DNA of 64,000 nt. It comes from an uncultured Parvularculaceae bacterium. GTDB taxonomy: Bacteria; Pseudomonadota; Alphaproteobacteria; Caulobacterales; Parvularculaceae. Below are positions 22,594 to 57,722 of this stretch, piece by piece; position 1 is the stretch's first letter; each line of letters opens with the position of its first letter. A program made the translations under genes and the position numbers. The stretch covers positions 1 to 64,000 of the forward strand of contig CAJXLJ010000010.1 of NCBI GenBank assembly GCA_913055785.1, read 5' to 3'. The notes under the pieces are model-generated. The model had not been told where the DNA came from and ran no database searches. It worked only from the letters and a program-made list of their open reading frames with translations.

Positions 22594-22912
22594 GGCTTGC
22601 CCTCTCCATCATCGACCGGCGCAGTCCGTGCGCGCGGATAAGAGGGTTTCGCGGATTGCCGCCCTTGGCAAGCGGCGGCCGGGCGGCGGCGCTTTCAGAC
22701 GCTTTTCGGCGCCCACAGCGTTGATTTCTCCGTCAAATCTGCGAAATTCCGCCTCGCTTTCACGCCGCGCCGGTTCCGGCGGAAGAGTGAGGGCGGCGCG
22801 CCGTCTCAATCGCGTACCGGGCGCGTCGTCATAACGGCGTCTCAACTGGGTGTGGGCCTTAAGGCCCTGAATTTATTTGGCTTTTTTGAAAGCCGGTGAG
22901 ATAGCAGGGTCG
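22594..22912. other. divergent spacer before the Mrp operon
   Basis: The spacer between the M28 gene and mrpE is GC-rich and shows no gene, hairpin terminator or clear repeat. Promoters for both directions should be here. I could not identify -35/-10 pairs with confidence. Confidence 0.3.
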
Positions 22913-23395
22913 ATGGGGCGATTTATCATCCTGGTTCTGGCGCTTGGCGCCCTGTGGCTGCTTCTGTCGGGCTATTTCGACAAGCCGCTGCTGTTGGGGT
23001 TCGGCGCCGCCTCGGTCCTGTTCGCCGCGCTGATGGCCCGCCGAGCCGGGATCGTCGACAATGACAGCGTGCCGACCGGGCTTTTTCCGGGGATCTTCGG
23101 CTACTGGCTGTGGCTGACCTTCGAAATCGGCAAGTCGAATATCGGCGTGATCCGCCACGCCCTGGCGGTTGAGCCGAAGCTCTCGCCGAAACTCTTCTAT
23201 GTGCCGTGCCAGCCGAAAACCAGCGTCGGCAAGGCGACCTTCGCGAATTCGATCACGCTGACGCCGGGCACGGTTTCCGTCGATCTCGGCGAGGAGGGCA
23301 TTCTCGTTCACGCGCTGACCGAAGACTTCGCCGATGTCGGCGCCATCAAGGAGATGGGCGACTACGTGGCGCGGATCGAGGGGAGCGAGGCATGA
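22913..23395 (+). CDS. mrpE: Mrp antiporter subunit E
   Basis: The 160-residue protein is MrpE/MnhE, an inner-membrane subunit of the multi-subunit cation/proton antiporter. It has two membrane segments at the start (FIILVLALGALWLLLSGYFD, then LLLGFGAASVLFAALMA) and a hydrophilic C-terminal domain with TFANSITLTPGTVSVDLGEE, which is diagnostic of the family. The ATG at 22913 is preferred over an upstream TTG because it gives the usual N terminus. It overlaps mrpF by ATGA and opens the operon. Confidence 0.92.
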   Translation: MGRFIILVLALGALWLLLSGYFDKPLLLGFGAASVLFAALMARRAGIVDNDSVPTGLFPGIFGYWLWLTFEIGKSNIGVIRHALAVEPKLSPKLFYVPCQPKTSVGKATFANSITLTPGTVSVDLGEEGILVHALTEDFADVGAIKEMGDYVARIEGSEA

Positions 23396-23688
23396 GCATG
23401 TTTGCGGTCGCCACCGCCGGCATCATCGCCGCCATGACGCTCGCCCTGGTGCGGGCCTTCGCCGGGCCGTCGCTTTACGACCGGGTTCTCGCCGGCAACT
23501 CTTTCGGTACGAAGACGGTGATCCTGATCGGCCTGATGGGCTTTCTCACCGGCCGCCCGGATTTTCTCGATATCGCGCTGCTTTATGCGCTGATCAATTT
23601 TGCGGCGACCATCGCCATCCTGCGCTTCTTCTCCTACCGCCAGTCCAGCAAGACGCGGGCGAAGCCGATGAGCGAGGGAGAAGCCTGA
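23392..23688 (+). CDS. mrpF: Mrp antiporter subunit F
   Basis: The 98-residue protein has three membrane segments and the MrpF signature RAFAGPSLYDRVLAGNSFGT, followed by VILIGLMGFLTGRPDFLDIA and ALLYALINFAATIAILRFF. It starts inside the last codons of mrpE (ATGA) and ends overlapping mrpG (TGATG). MrpF is one of the small membrane subunits needed for assembly of the whole complex; no catalytic role is assigned to it alone. Confidence 0.93.
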   Translation: MSMFAVATAGIIAAMTLALVRAFAGPSLYDRVLAGNSFGTKTVILIGLMGFLTGRPDFLDIALLYALINFAATIAILRFFSYRQSSKTRAKPMSEGEA

Positions 23689-24029
23689 TGATCGACTGGG
23701 ACCTCATTCGCGACCTTCTCTCCTGGGCGCTGTTCCTGACCGGCGGGTTTTCGGTTGTCGCCGGCGCTATCGGGCTGGTGCGGTTTCCGGATTTCTTCAC
23801 GCGGCTGCATGCGGCGGGCGTCACCGACACCGCCGGCGCCGAACTCATCATTCTCGGCATGATGATTCAGGCGCCGAACTGGATCGTCGTCGTCAAGCTC
23901 GCCTTCATTGCGGCGTTCTTGTTCCTGACCTCGCCGGTGGCGACCCATGCGATCGCCCACGCCGCATGGATGGTCGGTTTCAAACCGATGCAAGGACCCG
24001 ACCTTCGCTATGAGGGAGACGGCAAATGA
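23688..24029 (+). CDS. mrpG: Mrp antiporter subunit G
   Basis: The 113-residue protein is MrpG, with the diagnostic GLVRFPDFFTRLHAAGVTDT between its first two membrane segments and a third membrane segment (VVVKLAFIAAFLFLTSPVAT) followed by HAIAHAAW. It is coupled to both neighbours by four-base overlaps. MrpE, F and G form one side of the complex in solved Mrp structures. Confidence 0.93.
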   Translation: MIDWDLIRDLLSWALFLTGGFSVVAGAIGLVRFPDFFTRLHAAGVTDTAGAELIILGMMIQAPNWIVVVKLAFIAAFLFLTSPVATHAIAHAAWMVGFKPMQGPDLRYEGDGK

Positions 24030-24631
24030 GCGCGTTCGAAGTCGAACTGACGCCAATCGTCTTTCTCGATCTGTCGCTCCTGACGATGCTGATTCTCGTC
24101 GCCTTCGCGATGCTGCGCTCCCGTCACCTGTTCGCGGTGGTGATGCTGTCGGGGATTTATTCCCTGCTCTCGGCGGCGTTTTTCGTCTCGCTCGATGCGG
24201 TCGACGTGGCGTTCACCGAAGCGGCGGTGGGCGCCGGCGTTTCGACGGTGCTGATGCTGGCGGGCATGCTCCTGACAGCGCGCCGCGAAAAGCCGAAAAC
24301 CCCGGGCCGCGCGCCGGTCGCGCTGGCGGTGGTGTTCGTCACCGGCGCCGCGCTCGCCTATGCGACCATCGACATGCCGGCCTTCGGCGATCCCGACGCG
24401 CCCGCGAATTCCTATGTCGGCCAGCAATATGTGGACGAGACCCCGAACGACATCGCCGTGCCGAACATCGTCACGGCGGTGCTGGCGAGCTACCGGGGCT
24501 TCGATACGATGGGCGAGACCATGGTGATTTTCACCGCCGGCGTCGCGGTGATGCTGTTGCTCGGTCTCGGCTCGGCGCGCGGCGGCCGTGAGGTCAGCGA
24601 CGCCGAACCGGAAGACGGGGAGGCCAAATAA
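24026..24631 (+). CDS. MbhD/MbhE-like subunit (split MrpA C-terminal region)
   Basis: The 201-residue membrane protein matches the C-terminal part of MrpA, which in archaeal Mbh complexes is encoded separately as MbhD and MbhE (DUF4040 region). It shows LLTMLILVAFAMLRSRHLFAVV then DAVDVAFTEAAVGAGVSTVL, the conserved segment of that domain, and a last membrane segment with DTMGETMVIFTAGVAVM. Here the domain is a gene of its own, coupled by ATGA to mrpG and by TAATG to mrpB. In classic bacterial mrp operons it is fused behind the ND5-like MrpA, so this is a split arrangement. Confidence 0.85.
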   Translation: MSAFEVELTPIVFLDLSLLTMLILVAFAMLRSRHLFAVVMLSGIYSLLSAAFFVSLDAVDVAFTEAAVGAGVSTVLMLAGMLLTARREKPKTPGRAPVALAVVFVTGAALAYATIDMPAFGDPDAPANSYVGQQYVDETPNDIAVPNIVTAVLASYRGFDTMGETMVIFTAGVAVMLLLGLGSARGGREVSDAEPEDGEAK

Positions 24632-25071
24632 TGGAACGCCTGATCCTCCGCGTCACGACGAAACTCCTCTTCGCGCCGATCATCCTGTTCGCGCTTTATG
24701 TGCAGTTTCACGGCGATTACGGGCCGGGCGGCGGCTTCCAGGCGGGCGTCATCTTCGCCGTCGCGTTCATTCTTCACGCATTCTGCTACGGTCTCGACGA
24801 GACCAAAAAAGCCGTGCCGCAAAAGGCGCTGACCGTCGCCATGGTGATCGGTCTGCTGTTCTATGTGGGCACCGGCGTCGCCACCATGCTGCTCGGCGCG
24901 AACCTTCTTGGTTATGACTCGATCGACCCGGACTCGACCCACCACGCGGGGCAGCATTACGGCATTCTGCTGGTCGAGTGGGGCGTCGGCATGTGCGTCG
25001 CCTCGACCATGATGACGATCTTCTATCATTTCACGGGCCGCGAGCCGGACATCAACCAGGAGGACTGGTAG
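24631..25071 (+). CDS. mrpB: Mrp antiporter subunit B
   Basis: The 146-residue protein has four membrane segments and the MnhB-domain signature FHGDYGPGGGFQAGVIFAVA, with a second conserved region HYGILLVEWGVGMCVASTMM and a hydrophilic tail (REPDINQEDW). It begins at the last base of the previous stop (TAATG). MrpB sits in the middle of the complex with C and the MrpA C-terminal region. Confidence 0.92.
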   Translation: MERLILRVTTKLLFAPIILFALYVQFHGDYGPGGGFQAGVIFAVAFILHAFCYGLDETKKAVPQKALTVAMVIGLLFYVGTGVATMLLGANLLGYDSIDPDSTHHAGQHYGILLVEWGVGMCVASTMMTIFYHFTGREPDINQEDW

Positions 25072-25074
25072 GCC

Positions 25075-25884
25075 GTGGAGTGGTTCGACTTCGTCCTTGA
25101 ACGGTATAATTACTGGATCGTCATCATCTTGATGATGACCGGGCTTTATATCGTTTTCGCCCGCGGCAATCTCGTCAAGAAGATCGTCGGGCTCAATCTC
25201 TTCCAGACATCCGTCTTCATCTATTACCTCACCATCGGCAAGATCGCGGGCGGCACCGCGCCGATCTATGTCGGCGGCGAGCTCGATCATGGCGGCGGCC
25301 ATGGCGAGGAGGCACCCGGTCATGATGCGCCGGGCCATGACGCGCCTCAGGGATCGGACGCGTCGCTGCACGAAACGCCCGAAGGCGCCAGTGATCATGT
25401 CAACGACCTGTTCGGCGGCGAGGCCGGCAGCGACAAGATCGCCAACGATTTCGCGTCGAACGATCTCAAGGAAACGCTGAAGGATTTTCAGGCGCAGGGC
25501 GCCGCGGCGCCGACCGGCGGAGAGGCTTCGCTGCACACGCCGCCCGAAGGCGTCGACGGCAAGATCGCGAATGATGCGTTCCAGAACATCAAAAAACCTG
25601 AGAGTATCGAGTTCTCAATCGGCGACGGTCATGAGGCGGGCGCGAACTCTCTCGCCGACGCCGTCCACCAGGCGAGCGAGGTGATCTACACCAACCCCTT
25701 GCCGCATGTCCTGATCCTCACCGCCATCGTCGTCGGCGTCGCGACGACTGCGGTCGGTCTCGCCCTCGCGGTGCGTATCCGCGAAGCCTACGGCACGATT
25801 GAGGAAGACGAACTCGAAGTCATCGACAATGTCGCCGAGTTCGGCGAAGAGGCGCGCGCGCGCGCGGAAGGAGCGGCGTCGTGA
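25075..25884 (+). CDS. mrpC: MrpC (NuoK-like) with large soluble insert
   Basis: The 269-residue protein starts at a GTG three bases after the mrpB stop. Residues 1-65 hold two NuoK-like membrane segments (YWIVIILMMTGLYIVFARGN, NLFQTSVFIYYLTIGKIAGG) and 205-235 hold the third (LILTAIVVGVATTAVGLALA). MrpC proteins are usually about 110-130 residues. Here residues 68-203 are an extra hydrophilic stretch rich in His, Gly, Asp and Glu, containing a partial internal duplication: ASLHETPEG at 96-104 with DKIANDF at 120-126, and ASLHTPPEG at 151-159 with GKIANDAF at 162-169. The insert leaves the membrane core intact. It ends GTGA at the next small frame. Confidence 0.85.
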   Translation: MEWFDFVLERYNYWIVIILMMTGLYIVFARGNLVKKIVGLNLFQTSVFIYYLTIGKIAGGTAPIYVGGELDHGGGHGEEAPGHDAPGHDAPQGSDASLHETPEGASDHVNDLFGGEAGSDKIANDFASNDLKETLKDFQAQGAAAPTGGEASLHTPPEGVDGKIANDAFQNIKKPESIEFSIGDGHEAGANSLADAVHQASEVIYTNPLPHVLILTAIVVGVATTAVGLALAVRIREAYGTIEEDELEVIDNVAEFGEEARARAEGAAS

Positions 25885-26039
25885 ACTTCTTTGCCGATCC
25901 TTCTAGACGCCCACACGCCTTCATCCTGAGGGCGTTCGAAGAACGCGTCACGAAGGGCGAAGGCGTATGGGCTCCTCAGGATGAAGGTTTTGAGTTGCTG
26001 AAAGCGTGTTTTGATTCCGGAAGCGAGGTTCTTTCGTGA
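25881..26039 (+). CDS. 52-codon frame formed by a palindromic repeat between mrpC and mrpD
   Basis: A GTG at 25881 overlaps the mrpC stop (GTGA) and has the strongest ribosome binding site nearby, GAAGGAG seven bases upstream. The frame runs without a stop through a complete palindromic repeat and ends with TGA at 26037-26039, overlapping the mrpD start as GTGA. Its first codons (MNFFADPS) resemble the first codons of mrpD (MNFAEQLP). It probably was the original mrpD start region, split by insertion of the repeat. Whether the peptide itself matters is unknown; translating it would keep mrpD coupled to the genes before it. Confidence 0.5.
   Translation: MNFFADPSRRPHAFILRAFEERVTKGEGVWAPQDEGFELLKACFDSGSEVLS
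25918..25987. repeat. dispersed palindromic repeat, copy 2
   Basis: CCTTCATCCTGAGG at 25918-25931 and CCTCAGGATGAAGG at 25974-25987 are perfect 14-base inverted arms around a 42-base centre that has its own smaller palindrome (GCGTTC-GAA-GAACGC). It lies inside the antiporter operon. Related copies are at about 47.75 and 57.44 kb. Confidence 0.85.
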
Positions 26040-27547
26040 ATTTCGCCGAACAGCTTCCCGTTCTCCCGATCATCACGCCGCTGGTCATGGCGCCGGTCAC
26101 GCTGCTGCTGCCGAAGGGCCGCGCGCCTTGGGCATGGGCGACGCTGGCGAGCTGGCTGACCTTCGCCGCATGCGTTTTCCTGCTGCGCGAGGTTTCGGCG
26201 TCATCGGCTGGGTTTATTTCCTATCACCTCGGCGACTGGGCGCCGCCGCTCGGCATCGAATACCGGGTCGATCTCGCCAACGCGCTGGTTCTGCTCCTCG
26301 TATCGGGCATCGCCTCGCTGGTGTTCCCCTTCGCCTACCGCTCGGTGCAGCTTGAAATCGACGAGCGCCAGTCGTCGCTGTTTTACGGCGCGTTGCTGAT
26401 CTGCATGACCGGCCTGCTTGGCGTCACCATCACCGGCGACGCCTTCAACGTTTTCGTGTTTCTCGAAATTTCTTCGCTTTCGACCTATGCGCTGATCGCC
26501 ATGGGCGCCCGGCGCGACCGGCGCGCGCTCACCGCCTCGTTTAACTATCTCGTCATGGGCACCATCGGCGCGACTTTCTTCGTGATCGGCATCGGTCTTC
26601 TTTATCAGGCGACCGGCACGCTCAACATGGCGGACCTCCACGACAAGCTCGCGGGCAACCACTCAAGGGTAGTCGACGCCGGTTTCGCGTTCATCGTCGT
26701 CGGCATGGGCCTGAAGCTCGCCATGTTCCCGATGCATCTGTGGCTGCCGAACGCCTACACCTATGCGCCGTCGGCGGTCTCCGCCTTCATCGCCGCGACC
26801 GCCACCAAGGTCGCGGTCTATGTGCTGATCCGCTTCCTTTATTCAATCTTCGGCTTCGATTTCTCGTTCATGGGCTCGGCCTTCACCTTCGTGCTGCTGC
26901 CGCTCGGGCTCGCCGGCATGTTTGTCGCGTCCTTCGTCGCGGTCTTTCAGGACGACGTCAAACGCATGCTCGCCTATTCTTCCGTGGCGCAGATCGGCTA
27001 CATGCTGCTGGGGCTTTCCTTCGCGACGGTCGAGGGGCTCACGGCGAGCCTCGTTCATGTGTTCAACCACGCGCTGATGAAGGGCGCGCTCTTCATGGCG
27101 GTCGCCTGCGTCGTCCTGCGCGCGGGCTCGCATTCGGTGGAAGCCTTCGCCGGTCTCGCCCGGCGCATGCCGTTCACCACATGGGCGTTCATTCTTTCCG
27201 GCCTGTCGCTGATCGGCGTGCCGCTGACCGTCGGCTTCATCTCGAAATGGTATCTCCTGCAGGCCGCTTTCGCCGCCGGTCACTGGTATGCGGGCTTTTT
27301 GATCGTCGCGAGTTCGCTGATCGCACTCCTTTATGTGGGCCGCATCGTTGAAGTGATGGTGCTGCGCGAACCGGCGGAGGAGGGCAAATACGCGATCCCG
27401 GCGAGAGACGCGCCGCTTTCCATGCTGATCCCCATGTGGATCATGGTGGCGGCCAACATCTATTTCGGCGTGAACACCGAACTTACCGGCGAGATCGCAA
27501 GACGCGCCGCTGAAGCGCTGATGATGGTGGCGGGAGGCGCTCCGTGA
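26036..27547 (+). CDS. mrpD: Mrp antiporter subunit D
   Basis: The 503-residue protein is an ND4/ND2-type subunit with about 14 membrane segments. It has the family core: FEISSLSTYALIAMGARR-like helix 5 with Glu, GLKLAMFPMHLWLPNAYTYA with the lumenal Lys and helix 7-8 motif, and HVFNHALMKGALFMAV with the second Lys. These are the proton- or sodium-path residues of the complex I-like antiporters. It starts at a GTG coupled to the repeat-derived frame upstream, with a weaker AGCGAGG ribosome binding site. It is the closest match to classical MrpD among the three large subunits here. Confidence 0.9.
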   Translation: MNFAEQLPVLPIITPLVMAPVTLLLPKGRAPWAWATLASWLTFAACVFLLREVSASSAGFISYHLGDWAPPLGIEYRVDLANALVLLLVSGIASLVFPFAYRSVQLEIDERQSSLFYGALLICMTGLLGVTITGDAFNVFVFLEISSLSTYALIAMGARRDRRALTASFNYLVMGTIGATFFVIGIGLLYQATGTLNMADLHDKLAGNHSRVVDAGFAFIVVGMGLKLAMFPMHLWLPNAYTYAPSAVSAFIAATATKVAVYVLIRFLYSIFGFDFSFMGSAFTFVLLPLGLAGMFVASFVAVFQDDVKRMLAYSSVAQIGYMLLGLSFATVEGLTASLVHVFNHALMKGALFMAVACVVLRAGSHSVEAFAGLARRMPFTTWAFILSGLSLIGVPLTVGFISKWYLLQAAFAAGHWYAGFLIVASSLIALLYVGRIVEVMVLREPAEEGKYAIPARDAPLSMLIPMWIMVAANIYFGVNTELTGEIARRAAEALMMVAGGAP

Positions 27548-29058
27548 TTGACGCCAATCTCGCCATCCCGCTCGCCCTGTGGGCGCCGCTGCTCGGCTGC
27601 GTCCTGATCTGGCTGCTCGACAAGTCGCCGAACCTGCGCGAGGCGGCGACGCTGGTCACCGGCGTCATCCTGCTTGGCCTCGCGATCACCGTGTTCGCCG
27701 CGGTGGGCGCGGGCGAACGTCCGACCTATGAACTGATCCAGGTGATCGACGGCTTGCCGATCGCGTTTCAGGCCGAACCCCTTGGCGCCATGTTCGGGCT
27801 GATCGCGAGCGGGCTGTGGCTGGTGAATTCGGTCTACGGCATCGGTTACATGCGCGGCCATAATGAGAAGCACCAGACGCGCTTCTTCATGTCGTTTGCG
27901 GTGGCGATCTCCGCCGCCATGGGCGTCGCGTTCGCCGCCAATCTCTTCACGCTCTTCATCTTCTATGAAGTGCTGACGCTGTCGACCTTCCCGCTCGTCA
28001 CCCATTACGGCGATGAAAAAGCGCGAAAGGGCGGGCGGATTTATCTCGGCGTCCTGATGGCGACATCGATCGGCCTGCTGCTGCCGGCGATTGTCTGGAC
28101 CTATGCGATCGCCGAAACCACCGAGTTCACGCCGGGCGGGATTTTCACCGCGCATATGGATGCGGTCGGCCCCATCGCCGGCGTCCTCATGGGGCTTTAC
28201 GCTTTCGGCGTCGGCAAGGCGGCGTTGATGCCGGTTCATCCCTGGCTGCCGAACGCCATGGTCGCGCCGACCCCGGTTTCGGCGTTCCTGCACGCGGTCG
28301 CGGTGGTCAAGGCCGGCGTTTTCTCGATCCTCAAGATCGCGGTCTATATTTTCGGCATCGAGTTCCTGCATGAGACGGGCGCATCCCAGCCCTTCATGTG
28401 GATCGCGGCGGGTTCGATCCTCCTCGCCTCCGCCATCGCCATGCACAAGGACAATTTGAAAGCGCGGCTCGCCTATTCGACGGTCTCGCAGCTTTCCTAC
28501 GTCACGCTCGGCGCGATGCTGGCGACGCAGATGGGCGTCATGGGCGGCGCCATGCAGATCGCCGCGCACGCCCTCGGCAAGATGACCCTCTTCATGTGCG
28601 CCGGCGCGATCTATGTGGCGCACCACAAATCGCTGGTGTCTGAACTTCGCGGCATGGGCCGGGTGATGCCGTTCACCTTCGGCGCGTTTTTCCTCGGCGC
28701 GATGTCGATCATCGGGCTGCCGCCGATGGCGGGCTCATGGCCGAAATTCTTTTTGATGGTCGGCGCGGCGGACGCCGGGCAACTGGCGATCATCGCGGTC
28801 CTGATGATCTCGTCGATCCTCAATGTGATTTATCTCCTGTCGATCCCGATTCAGGCCTTCTATATGAAACCGGCGGAAGGCGATGCGAAACCGCAAGGGG
28901 CGGAAGGCGAGGGGATCAAATGGGGCGCGCTCAAGGAAGCGCCGATCCTCTGTCTCGCGCCGCCGATGCTGACCGCCTTCGGCGCTTTCCTGCTCTTCTT
29001 CTTCTCCGGACATCTCTACGATTATCTCACGCCGCTGATGGGAGGCGTTCATGGCTGA
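27544..29058 (+). CDS. second ND4/NuoM-like antiporter subunit
   Basis: The 504-residue protein, coupled to mrpD by GTGA, is again an ND4-type proton-translocating membrane subunit, with about 14 membrane segments. It has LFTLFIFYEVLTLSTFPLVT with Glu, YAFGVGKAALMPVHPWLPNA with Lys and His, and AAHALGKMTLFMCAGAIY with Lys. It differs clearly from mrpD (no long shared words), so it is an old paralogue with its own role. A GYMRGHNEKHQTRFF segment after the third helix is typical of the NuoM/NuoL group. Classic Mrp operons do not have this extra subunit after D. Confidence 0.87.
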   Translation: MIDANLAIPLALWAPLLGCVLIWLLDKSPNLREAATLVTGVILLGLAITVFAAVGAGERPTYELIQVIDGLPIAFQAEPLGAMFGLIASGLWLVNSVYGIGYMRGHNEKHQTRFFMSFAVAISAAMGVAFAANLFTLFIFYEVLTLSTFPLVTHYGDEKARKGGRIYLGVLMATSIGLLLPAIVWTYAIAETTEFTPGGIFTAHMDAVGPIAGVLMGLYAFGVGKAALMPVHPWLPNAMVAPTPVSAFLHAVAVVKAGVFSILKIAVYIFGIEFLHETGASQPFMWIAAGSILLASAIAMHKDNLKARLAYSTVSQLSYVTLGAMLATQMGVMGGAMQIAAHALGKMTLFMCAGAIYVAHHKSLVSELRGMGRVMPFTFGAFFLGAMSIIGLPPMAGSWPKFFLMVGAADAGQLAIIAVLMISSILNVIYLLSIPIQAFYMKPAEGDAKPQGAEGEGIKWGALKEAPILCLAPPMLTAFGAFLLFFFSGHLYDYLTPLMGGVHG

Positions 29059-29326
29059 CCATGATCACAACGGCAAACCCGGCTGGGCGGACAATCCGGC
29101 GTTCGTGCGCGGGTTTTTGATCGTTCTCATCGTGTCGTCGGTGCTCGCCGCCATCGCCGGTTTCGTGCCGGCCTGGCAAAAGGACCATCCGCATTTCGAG
29201 GTCGAAGGCTGGAAAATCTTCTTCGCGGTCTACGGCTTCGTCGCCTTCTCGTTCATCGTGCTCGCCGGCCAGCATTTGCGAAAACTCGTGGGCCGCAAGG
29301 AAACCTATTACGAGGAGCGCGAATAG
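29051..29326 (+). CDS. small two-TM protein of the antiporter operon
   Basis: The 91-residue protein overlaps the preceding gene by eight bases and ends directly before the next start. It has two membrane segments (VRGFLIVLIVSSVLAAIAGF and IFFAVYGFVAFSFIVLAGQH), a His/Asp-rich N terminus and a charged tail (RKETYYEERE). I do not recognise a named family. Its tight packing in the operon argues that it is a subunit or assembly factor of the antiporter, perhaps specific to this type of cluster. Confidence 0.75.
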   Translation: MADHDHNGKPGWADNPAFVRGFLIVLIVSSVLAAIAGFVPAWQKDHPHFEVEGWKIFFAVYGFVAFSFIVLAGQHLRKLVGRKETYYEERE

Positions 29327-31054
29327 ATGAACGCCTTCCTCGACATGCTCATGCAGAACCCGGCGGTGATCCTCACTGTCGGCGCGGCGGTGACGCTGGC
29401 GGCGCCGCGCCATTTCGCCTCGCCGATCCTGCTCGTCGCGACCGCGCTATCGGCGATCAAGCTTTACGATCTCGGCCTCGGCAATTACGGGGCGATCATG
29501 CTGTTCGGCGAACAGCTGACCACCGTGCGGCTCGATCCCCTGTCGCGCATTTTCGCAGTGGTGTTCCACATCGCGATTGCGCTCAACATCATTTACGGCT
29601 GGGGTCAAAAAGACAGAGCGCAGAACTTCGCAACACTCGCCTATCCGGCGGCGGCGCTCGGCGGCGTCCTCGCTGGCGATTACCTGACGCTGTTCTTCTG
29701 GTGGGAGATGGCGGCGCTCACCTCCGTCTTCCTCGTCTGGGCGCCGGGGACGCGCGTCACCTATCTCGCCGGCATGCGCTATCTGTCGATCCAGATCCTC
29801 TCGGGCGTCTTGCTGCTCGGCGGGATCGCGCTGATCTATCGCGAGACTGGCTCGCTCGACTTCAACCTGGTGGGCCTGCGCGACGATGGCGGCGCGATCA
29901 AGTTCTCCGCGCTCGTCCTGTTCCTCGCTTTCGGGATCAAGTCGGCGTTCCCGCTCCTGCATAACTGGGTGCAGGACGCCTACCCGAAATCGACCATCAC
30001 CGGCGCGATCATCCTCTCGATCTTCACGACCAAGCTCGCGGTCTATTCGCTCGCCCGCGCGTTTCCGGGCACGCCGGAGCTCATCTATATTGGCGCGGTG
30101 ATGACGATCTTCCCGATCTTCTTCGCGCTCATCGAAAACGACCTGCGCAAGGTTCTAACCTATTCGATCAACAACCAGGTCGGCTTCATGGTGGTCGCCA
30201 TCGGCTTCGGCTCGATCAACGGTGCGGCGGGCTACGCCTTCGGCAACATCATTTTCGAAGGGCTCCTGTTCATGGCGCTCGGCGCCGCGATGTTCCGCAC
30301 CGGCACGTCGAAAGCTACCGAACTCGGCGGGCTTTACCGCACAATGCCGCTCACCATGGGCCTTTGCATTGTCGGCGCGCTCTCGATCTCCGCCTTCCCG
30401 GGCACGCTCGGCTTCGTCACCAAGGGGCTGATCATCGACGCCGCCGGCGAGGCGCATATGTTCTGGATCTGGCTGACGCTGCTCTTCGCCTCCGCCGGGG
30501 TTCTCGAACATGCCGGTATCAAGATCCCGTTCTTCACGTTCTTCGCCCACGATTCCGGCAAGCGGCCCAAGGAAGCGCCCTTGCCCATGCTGATCGCCAT
30601 GGGGATTGCGGCTGTGTTGTGCATCGGGATCGGCGTTTACCCGGACCCGCTCTATGCGCTGATGCCTGACCGGGAAGCGATCGCCGGCTATCACCCCTAC
30701 ACCGCCTATCATCTGGTCGAGCAGCTTCAGCTCCTGCTGTGGGCGGTCCTCGCCTTTGCGGTCCTGATGCTCGTCAAGTGGTATCCGCCGGAAGTCCCGT
30801 CGACCAATCTCGACACGGACTGGCTATATCGCGTGCCGGGCAGGGCGTTTATCGGCTGGGTAAGTGGTGCGTCGCGCGCGACATGGAACGCGTTATGGGG
30901 GATTTTCTCCAGCTACATACAAGCGGTGATGGCGCGGATTTACGCCGTCCACGGCCCCGAAGGGCAGATGGCGCGCTCCTGGCCGATCGGCTTCATGGCG
31001 CTGTGGACCGCGGTTTTGCTTGGCTTCGTGCTGATCCTGTCGTTCCTTTCGTAA
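29327..31054 (+). CDS. third ND4/ND5-like antiporter subunit
   Basis: The 575-residue protein has about 14-15 membrane segments and the ND4/ND5 core: DYLTLFFWWEMAALTSVFLV with Glu, LAFGIKSAFPLLHNWVQDAY with Lys, and NIIFEGLLFMALGAAMF in place of the usual His/Lys helix. Near the end NLDTDWLYRVPGRAF is a segment also seen in NuoL and in MrpA-type subunits. In this cluster it may take the place of the ND5-like half of MrpA, whose C-terminal region is encoded separately at 24.0 kb. It is the last gene of the operon; no hairpin terminator is obvious downstream. Confidence 0.85.
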   Translation: MNAFLDMLMQNPAVILTVGAAVTLAAPRHFASPILLVATALSAIKLYDLGLGNYGAIMLFGEQLTTVRLDPLSRIFAVVFHIAIALNIIYGWGQKDRAQNFATLAYPAAALGGVLAGDYLTLFFWWEMAALTSVFLVWAPGTRVTYLAGMRYLSIQILSGVLLLGGIALIYRETGSLDFNLVGLRDDGGAIKFSALVLFLAFGIKSAFPLLHNWVQDAYPKSTITGAIILSIFTTKLAVYSLARAFPGTPELIYIGAVMTIFPIFFALIENDLRKVLTYSINNQVGFMVVAIGFGSINGAAGYAFGNIIFEGLLFMALGAAMFRTGTSKATELGGLYRTMPLTMGLCIVGALSISAFPGTLGFVTKGLIIDAAGEAHMFWIWLTLLFASAGVLEHAGIKIPFFTFFAHDSGKRPKEAPLPMLIAMGIAAVLCIGIGVYPDPLYALMPDREAIAGYHPYTAYHLVEQLQLLLWAVLAFAVLMLVKWYPPEVPSTNLDTDWLYRVPGRAFIGWVSGASRATWNALWGIFSSYIQAVMARIYAVHGPEGQMARSWPIGFMALWTAVLLGFVLILSFLS

Positions 31055-47739: not shown

Positions 47740-47854
47740 CTCAGTTTGCCTTCATCCTGAGGGTTCTTTCGCCTTTGCCCTTCGTGACGCCGGCCTTCGG
47801 CCGGCCCTCAGGATGAAGGCGAAAGAACGTCACGAAGGACGAAGGAAAACTGAG
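47740..47854. repeat. dispersed palindromic repeat, copy 3
   Basis: GCCTTCATCCTGAGGG at 47748-47763 and CCCTCAGGATGAAGGC at 47805-47820 are perfect 16-base inverted arms. Outside them CTCAGTTT at 47740-47747 and AAACTGAG at 47847-47854 are also inverted, and GTTCTTTCGCC is repeated inverted in between, so the element is a nest of hairpins. It lies between two genes on the minus strand. Confidence 0.85.
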
Positions 47855-50211: not shown

Positions 50212-50362
50212 CCTCATCCTGAGGCGCCCGGCTGAAATCCCGGCAGGTATTTCGGCCGGGCCTCGAAGGATGCGAGGCAAACGCCGTCCTTGAACGCCAT
50301 CCTTCGAGGCTCGTCCACCCGTTCGGTTTCGCGAACGGGCGTACGCGCACCTCAGGATGAGG
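50212..50362. repeat. dispersed palindromic repeat, copy 4
   Basis: CCTCATCCTGAGG at 50212-50224 and CCTCAGGATGAGG at 50350-50362 are perfect 13-base inverted arms. Inside are CCTCGAAGGATGCGAGG and ATCCTTCGAGGC, plus a hairpin CCGTTCG-GTTT-CGCGAACGG. It is the longest copy and shares its right end with copy 1. Confidence 0.8.
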
Positions 50363-57398: not shown

Positions 57399-57722
57399 CA
57401 ACCCGGAACTCTTCTGCACGCGGCCGAAAATACGCTTCACCCTGAGGGCTCTTTTCCCTTCATCCTTCGTGACGGCGCTCCGCGCCCCTCAGAATGAAGG
57501 GAAAAAGAGCGTCACGAAGGGCGAAGCGGGCCTTTTCGATCCGCCCGCTTATAGGCGATTTTCCCATCGGCGATAATGGCGGCGGGAAAAAGGCCGAAAG
57601 CGCCGGAATTGGTGACAAATCCGTCATTTACGCCGCCGCCGCCCTCGTTGCCGGCAGTGGCGTTCGCGATAAAACCTGTTTAAGCCTATGCGCTTCGGGC
57701 GGGAGCCGCTTCGGGGAGGCGG
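57399..57722. other. divergent region with palindromic repeat
   Basis: This region separates the PBP1A gene and the first TolB/TPR gene. Repeat copy 5 fills 57435-57530. The rest (57531-57722) is GC-rich and should contain the promoter of the rightward gene; no clear boxes were found. No further gene is visible. Confidence 0.4.
57435..57530. repeat. dispersed palindromic repeat, copy 5
   Basis: CTTCACCCTGAGGG at 57435-57448 and CCCTCAGAATGAAG at 57486-57499 are inverted arms with two mismatches in 14. Further inside and outside, CTCTTTTCCCTTC and GAAGGGAAAAAGAG pair, and CTTCGTGACG pairs with CGTCACGAAG. The layout matches copy 3. Confidence 0.85.

Follow-up and report, generated by a model that had tools for sequence, protein, structure and literature searches.

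How does the operon of a membrane complex accommodate a dispersed palindromic repeat between two of its genes? The question is raised by an Mrp-type antiporter operon in a 64,000-nucleotide stretch of DNA from an uncultured Parvularculaceae bacterium (GCA_913055785.1, contig CAJXLJ010000010.1, positions 1 to 64,000 of the forward strand), called the window here, whose genome has its kin in Marinicaulis and other Parvularculaceae. The gene order is E, F, G, MbhD/E-like, B, C, D, D2, X and A-like, with letters that are in part what we take to be the usual ones for Mrp operons. A Pfam scan of eight of the ten genes, F and G being left out, gave a family match in seven (MNHE, MbhD/MbhE, MnhB, Oxidored_q2 for mrpC, and three Proton_antipo_M proteins) and no Pfam family for gene X. 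The features that concern us are the following.

22877..31054, + strand: Mrp-type antiporter operon (ORFs, Pfam, junction comparison)
25075..25884, + strand: mrpC, NuoK/MrpC-like, 269 aa, with GTGA at its end (ORF; Pfam PF00420)
25866..25873, + strand: GGAAGGAG, Shine-Dalgarno-like, 7 nt before the GTG of the bridge and within the 3' end of mrpC (sequence)
25881..26039, + strand: bridging open frame of 52 codons with a GTG start and a GTGA overlap at both ends (ORF; strict bridge)
25898..25987, + strand: palindromic dispersed repeat, 90 nt, with interleaved inverted arms (genome copies, boundaries, consensus fold)
25918..25931, + strand: left perfect arm, CCTTCATCCTGAGG (inverted-repeat search)
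25974..25987, + strand: right perfect arm, CCTCAGGATGAAGG (inverted-repeat search)
26019..26028, + strand: GGAAGCGAGG, Shine-Dalgarno-like element of mrpD (sequence)
26036..26039, + strand: GTGA, the bridge stop over the mrpD start (sequence, ORFs)
26036..27547, + strand: mrpD, Proton_antipo_M (ORF; Pfam)

The mrpC stop (25884) and the mrpD start (26036) are separated by 151 nt. A first-pass annotation had stated that a gap of about 150 bases at this junction holds a perfect repeat with 14-base arms, that one frame runs open from the GTGA of mrpC through the repeat to the GTGA of mrpD, and that the better ribosome binding site belongs to this frame. Each of these points is borne out. The two arms are 100% complementary and lie 42 nt apart; the frame has its own start and stop and overlaps both the end of mrpC and the start of mrpD at -4; and on inspection the element preceding it is strongly Shine-Dalgarno-like, that of mrpD being weaker. 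The further statement that all other junctions in the 5' half of the operon are overlaps applies to E-F (-4), F-G (-1), G-H (-4) and H-B (-1) but not to mrpB-mrpC, which has a 3-nt gap (+3). The bridging frame matched no Pfam family in the Pfam scan, and its coding log-odds is -0.044 per codon. By shuffling, the probability of its being open by chance is 0.067-0.082; on its own it is only mildly unusual, and its significance comes from comparison across genomes. At the neighbouring mrpC (25075-25884), the 95-position Oxidored_q2 profile was matched in two stretches, and the protein, which has 269 aa, therefore seems to contain a long insertion, rich in His, Asp and Gly, of some 150 residues.

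The repeat was found at 17 places in its own genome at E <= 1.2e-6, the window's place included, six of them with exact arms, so that it has the many dispersed palindromic copies of a REP/REPIN- or MITE-like element. At E <= 1e-8 it was matched in nine of the 28 genus genomes, and an Rfam search of positions 25000-27000 gave no match at E <= 1. The aligned copies start at about TCCTTCGWGACG and finish at about CCTCAGGATGAAG, with the inverted parts interleaved. The predicted RNA fold of 25900-26005 has a z of -4.2, and in a consensus fold from a 12-sequence alignment nine of the 26 predicted pairs are kept with both sides changed in at least one sequence. Each arm, as read from the sequence, has a TGA in one of three frames. 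Between the repeat at 25898-25987 and its copies (L002-L015) the arms differ while each copy is still self-complementary, as if the hairpin arms had been corrected against each other. More copies or parts of the family lie within the window at 47749-47839, 57435-57526 and 50212-50362.

To compare inserts between genomes, we call an insert strictly bridged if it has a frame whose start codon shares bases with the upstream stop and whose stop lies no more than 5 nt from the next start; a loose rule was used alongside. The mrpD gene was matched at E <= 1e-200 in 27 of the 28 genus genomes, the window's own included. In 24 of these 27, mrpC and mrpD overlap plainly, at -4 or -1, as the first-pass annotation had expected of relatives without the repeat. 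The remaining three have an insert, of 151 nt in the window genome (G000), of 139 nt and the same repeat family in G015, and of 235 nt with a different palindrome in G018. An open frame runs from overlap to overlap in all three, that of G018 being unrelated to the window's bridge and at the same place. A long gap without the window's repeat, which the annotation had named as a finding against its reading, does exist in two relatives: that of G018 is bridged, and that of L089, a locus outside the genus with a C-D gap of 162 nt, is bridged loosely only. The L089 insert resembled none of the other fetched loci and contains no palindrome of note. In the mrpD protein tree G000, G015 and G018 do not form one group; three changes are needed, and the starred branches force three. 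Of the matches listed for the window's repeat, the G015 mrpC-mrpD copy ranks first, with 89% over 91 nt at an identical offset against 85% for the next, so that a shared origin of the G000 and G015 inserts, with one gain followed by losses, is possible.

The same arrangement recurs along the operon. We collected the mrp inserts of at least 30 nt (n=30), 26 of them in the genus and four in the more distant loci L089-L091; the D-D2 gap of G005, at a contig end, was excluded. The genus gaps of this size number three at C-D, nine at D-D2, 13 at D2-X and one at F-G, with none in the genus genomes at E-F, G-H, H-B, B-C or X-A. By the strict rule, which like the loose one was fixed after the mrp junctions had been seen, 27 of the 30 inserts are bridged, where dinucleotide shuffles with both flanks fixed and the phase random predict 3.07; the loose rule gives 28/30 against 5.3 expected. 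Inserts at one junction that shared any blastn similarity were merged, which reduced the 30 to 18 groups, and 15 of these are bridged in all members (expected 1.78, P 3e-16; our P values assume that inserts or groups are independent). With a bridge in every C-D insert of the genus and a strict one in 25 of its 26 inserts across the operon, the earlier interpretation of a coupled frame across the repeat gains support at the level of sequence.

The joints of these frames are uniform. The start lies at -4 in each of the 27 strict bridges, and the stop, relative to the next start, at +1 in 20, +5 in six and -2 in one, giving overlaps of 4, 8 and 1 nt. Counted by phase, 28 of the 30 inserts are free of stops in the bridge phase and six and four in the other two. 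The inserts without a strict bridge are those of G008 at D2-X (464 nt, the right part of which holds a 97-aa frame), L090 at D2-X and L089 at C-D. Several repeat families are represented; 23 of the 30 inserts resemble other fetched loci (some a single locus), 22 of these 23 being bridged, and one and the same repeat arm is read in different frames, as FILR, FLHPEE or LRMK. Codon log-odds are negative in 20 of the 27 bridges, which suggests that the peptide is not what is conserved. The highest totals belong to the D2-X frames of G006 (25.0) and G040 (9.1), followed by G023 (5.7) and G017 (4.7), and the frames of G006 and G040 look like small membrane-protein genes. At the D2-X position, which holds repeats in other genomes, the membrane-protein-like small genes of L075, L088 and L086 have 89, 101 and 97 aa. 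Of 485 mrp junctions from outside the genus, 10 are separated by 60 nt or more, and six of these ten are loosely bridged under one or other start choice, as a raw count.

Controls were drawn from copies of the window's repeat elsewhere and from other operons. The repeat copies came from 48 loci, 20 of the 66 own-genome match rows (many of which are arms or fragments) and 28 of 66 further places; 29 of the 48 are tandem, and removal of two mrp junctions (L165, L168) and a duplicate of L006 (L181) left 26. In these ordinary same-strand gene spaces the rates are near chance, with 2/26 loosely bridged (1.04 expected) and 1/26 strictly (0.37 expected). The dcw cell-wall cluster, tested after the rules were fixed, gave 26 inserts from 25 genomes, with the ftsL-ftsI junction (faulty ftsI reference start) and gaps over 700 excluded, and one 31-nt insert left out of the groups. 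Strictly 1/26 is bridged against 0.55 expected, loosely 15/26 against 3.92, and by group 5/13 loosely against 1.37 (P 0.0017); in dcw it is common for a frame to run open across the repeat with no exact overlaps. The upstream stop lies in a DTGA in 29/30 mrp inserts, 5/26 dcw inserts and 8/26 tandem-space copies. As so few of the dcw and tandem inserts have it, the strict controls are low in power, and the loose rule allows the fairer comparison. Both ends have a DTGA in 23/30 mrp inserts and 3/26 tandem-space copies. The exact rule of overlap, frame and overlap is thus seen in the mrp operon, and a weaker related effect in dcw. At murC-murB (L237-L260) inserts were observed in 12 genus genomes, ten of them of 117-173 nt, with at least one stop-free phase in 11 of the 12. 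The nuo operon has few small inserts (four gaps inspected). In the genus (L212-L236) it has kilobase inserts at F-G, G-H and often I-J, wherever readable, and H-I, K-L, L-M and M-N are tight in most genomes.

As to the origin of the second overlap, the repeat had been proposed to have duplicated the start of mrpD on landing. This fits the window genome, whose left flank is closest to its own right flank (29 vs at most 22), and G015, whose left flank resembles mrpD starts generally (own 33, two other genomes 44 and 37); it does not fit G018 and is not the general mechanism. Target-site duplication as the general source of the second overlap was rejected, the own flank pair being the best in five of the 28 inserts over 60 nt (G000 C-D, L089 C-D, G013 D-D2, G003 D2-X and G040 D2-X).

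What could keep such frames open? In native gene pairs of E. coli, +14 nt lowers reinitiation by 40-80% and +38 nt almost abolishes it, according to the relevant part of PMC10666635, which also describes short overlaps as enriched among subunits of heteromeric complexes. Since reinitiation drops so steeply with distance, the 151-nt gap should uncouple mrpD, and a frame from overlap to overlap would restore the link with mrpC. We consider it probable that the repeat inserted at the mrpC-mrpD overlap persists through a bridge that preserves termination-reinitiation coupling, and that the same constraint acts at other mrp junctions. A dispersed palindromic repeat would have inserted at the overlap and been kept by virtue of one open frame with its start in the mrpC stop codon and its stop in the mrpD start codon. 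A ribosome that finishes mrpC would begin again at the bridge start, pass through the hairpin, terminate at the second GTGA and there begin mrpD. The antiporter subunits would in this way stay coupled by termination and reinitiation over a distance at which the coupling would otherwise be lost. The peptide made from the bridge would probably be useless, and the constraint would hold at the other junctions of the operon in the genus whichever repeat had landed. We infer that the bridge frames are translated and that selection for coupling is the cause. Counting against this explanation are the lack of a strict excess in dcw, the three mrp inserts without a strict bridge and the presence of a Shine-Dalgarno-like element of mrpD's own.

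Loading of Rho on untranslated RNA, and the polarity that results, is standard in the account given in the pertinent section of PMC12548453. The main role of the bridges might accordingly be to maintain ribosome cover on the mRNA against a Rho- or hairpin-dependent stop of transcription, with reinitiation at the second overlap incidental; the strong predicted fold of the window's repeat and the dcw frames that are open without exact overlaps would both fit. As the main cause we think this rather unlikely, since cover of the RNA needs no such joints as the -4 starts and the 4-, 8- or 1-nt overlaps that end all 27 strict mrp bridges. Protection from Rho polarity may act together with coupling, and the best reading of the inserts is that they would be retained where they leave intact termination-reinitiation coupling or, at a minimum, the continuity of translation. 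It is improbable that the transposon, instead of selection in the operon, accounts for the bridging, with elements that target DTGA overlaps and bring a ready-made ORF. Mycobacterial MIRUs do behave so in the passages of PMC12548453 devoted to them, and the frequent DTGA at both ends of mrp inserts is as this would predict, but in other tandem spaces only 3/26 copies of the window's repeat have it and these copies are bridged no more often than stated above, several families take part with one arm read in different frames, and in the window the repeat is separated from the overlaps by 13 nt on its left and 48 nt on its right.

Another reading is that the 52-codon frame encodes a genuine small protein that acts together with the antiporter. 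The Shine-Dalgarno-like site of the frame is a good one, and real-looking small membrane-protein genes lie at D2-X in G006, G040 and G008; its own negative coding log-odds, its lack of a Pfam family in the scan, a sequence that is mostly repeat and an unrelated frame at the same place in G018 make this very improbable. Least credible is chance, by which GC-rich palindromes would often be open in some frame. The single-case probability for the window and the blocking of one frame in three per arm speak in its favour, but this reading is already contradicted by the counts, with 27 of 30 inserts bridged where about three were expected with both flanks fixed, and with repeat copies elsewhere near chance.

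As a rule, MIRU elements themselves target DTGA overlaps genome-wide. They are short mobile-looking repeats at start codons (Supply et al. 1997, as cited in PMC12548453), and the section on them in PMC12548453 describes a MIRU ORF coupled to the next gene at -4 spacing, so that insertion does little harm. The mrp inserts are alike in having an ORF at -4 spacing to the next gene (GTGA at 26036-26039; stop at +1 in 20/27 strict bridges). They differ in that several palindromic families are involved, the setting being a single antiporter operon in one genus of alphaproteobacteria, that the bridge frame includes flanks outside the repeat, and that copies of the window's repeat in tandem spaces seldom have DTGA at both neighbouring gene ends (3/26). 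As copies of the window's family in ordinary tandem spaces are bridged at near-chance rates, coupling would not appear to come with the repeat as such. From the DTGA ends (23/30 vs 3/26), the several families and the several frames, it is apparently the operon that selects for insertions with a bridge. MIRUs are thus a close precedent with the same outcome, and the difference is where the bridging property seems to lie.

Other systems share single traits. Rickettsia palindromic elements, as outlined in the pertinent part of PMC10969869, are palindromic repeats of ~150 bp, often in frame, inside genes of alphaproteobacteria. They resemble the mrp bridge as palindromic repeats kept in frame in that class; they lie within a gene with the peptide fused to the protein, whereas the bridge is a separate cistron between two genes. 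The Chunjie MITE of Geobacter, by the title of Chen's 2008 account, is said to be inserted in an operon without disturbing its structure; insertion of a MITE into an operon is the likeness, and we know of no bridging frame in it. A review states, in the passage concerned, that one of two phosphate uptake operons is disrupted by it. In bicistronic design, as sketched in PMC12548453, a short ORF hands ribosomes to a coupled next gene, but such ORFs are engineered or upstream, and here a natural repeat stands inside an operon. BOX elements of pneumococcus are transcribed with operons and some contain ORFs, and overlap coupling does not figure in what the relevant portion of PMC3049150 says of them. 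Among the literature matches listed, at the level of titles and abstract openings, none concerned repeats bridged at operon overlaps in alphaproteobacteria, which is not proof of absence. What appears to be new here, as far as sequence comparison goes, is bridging across several repeat families in one operon; coupled repeats of the MIRU type were already known.

The host operon may impose a general rule: where genes of a stoichiometric membrane complex are coupled, a repeat of whatever family would be retained at the junction solely in the form of a coding-empty bridging cistron that serves continuity of translation and nothing else. We regard the chances of such a rule as evenly balanced. If the rule is true, repeat insertions would be an evolutionary readout of the operon junctions that truly need translational coupling. 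It is still argued whether ATGA-type overlaps are selected for coupling or are a by-product of compact genomes; many insertions by different repeats, nearly all of which end up as overlap, frame and overlap in one complex, unlike the window's repeat at other sites, would speak directly, at the level of evolution, for selection on coupling. The bridges would also be a ready source of non-protein small ORFs with a role in ribosome handover.
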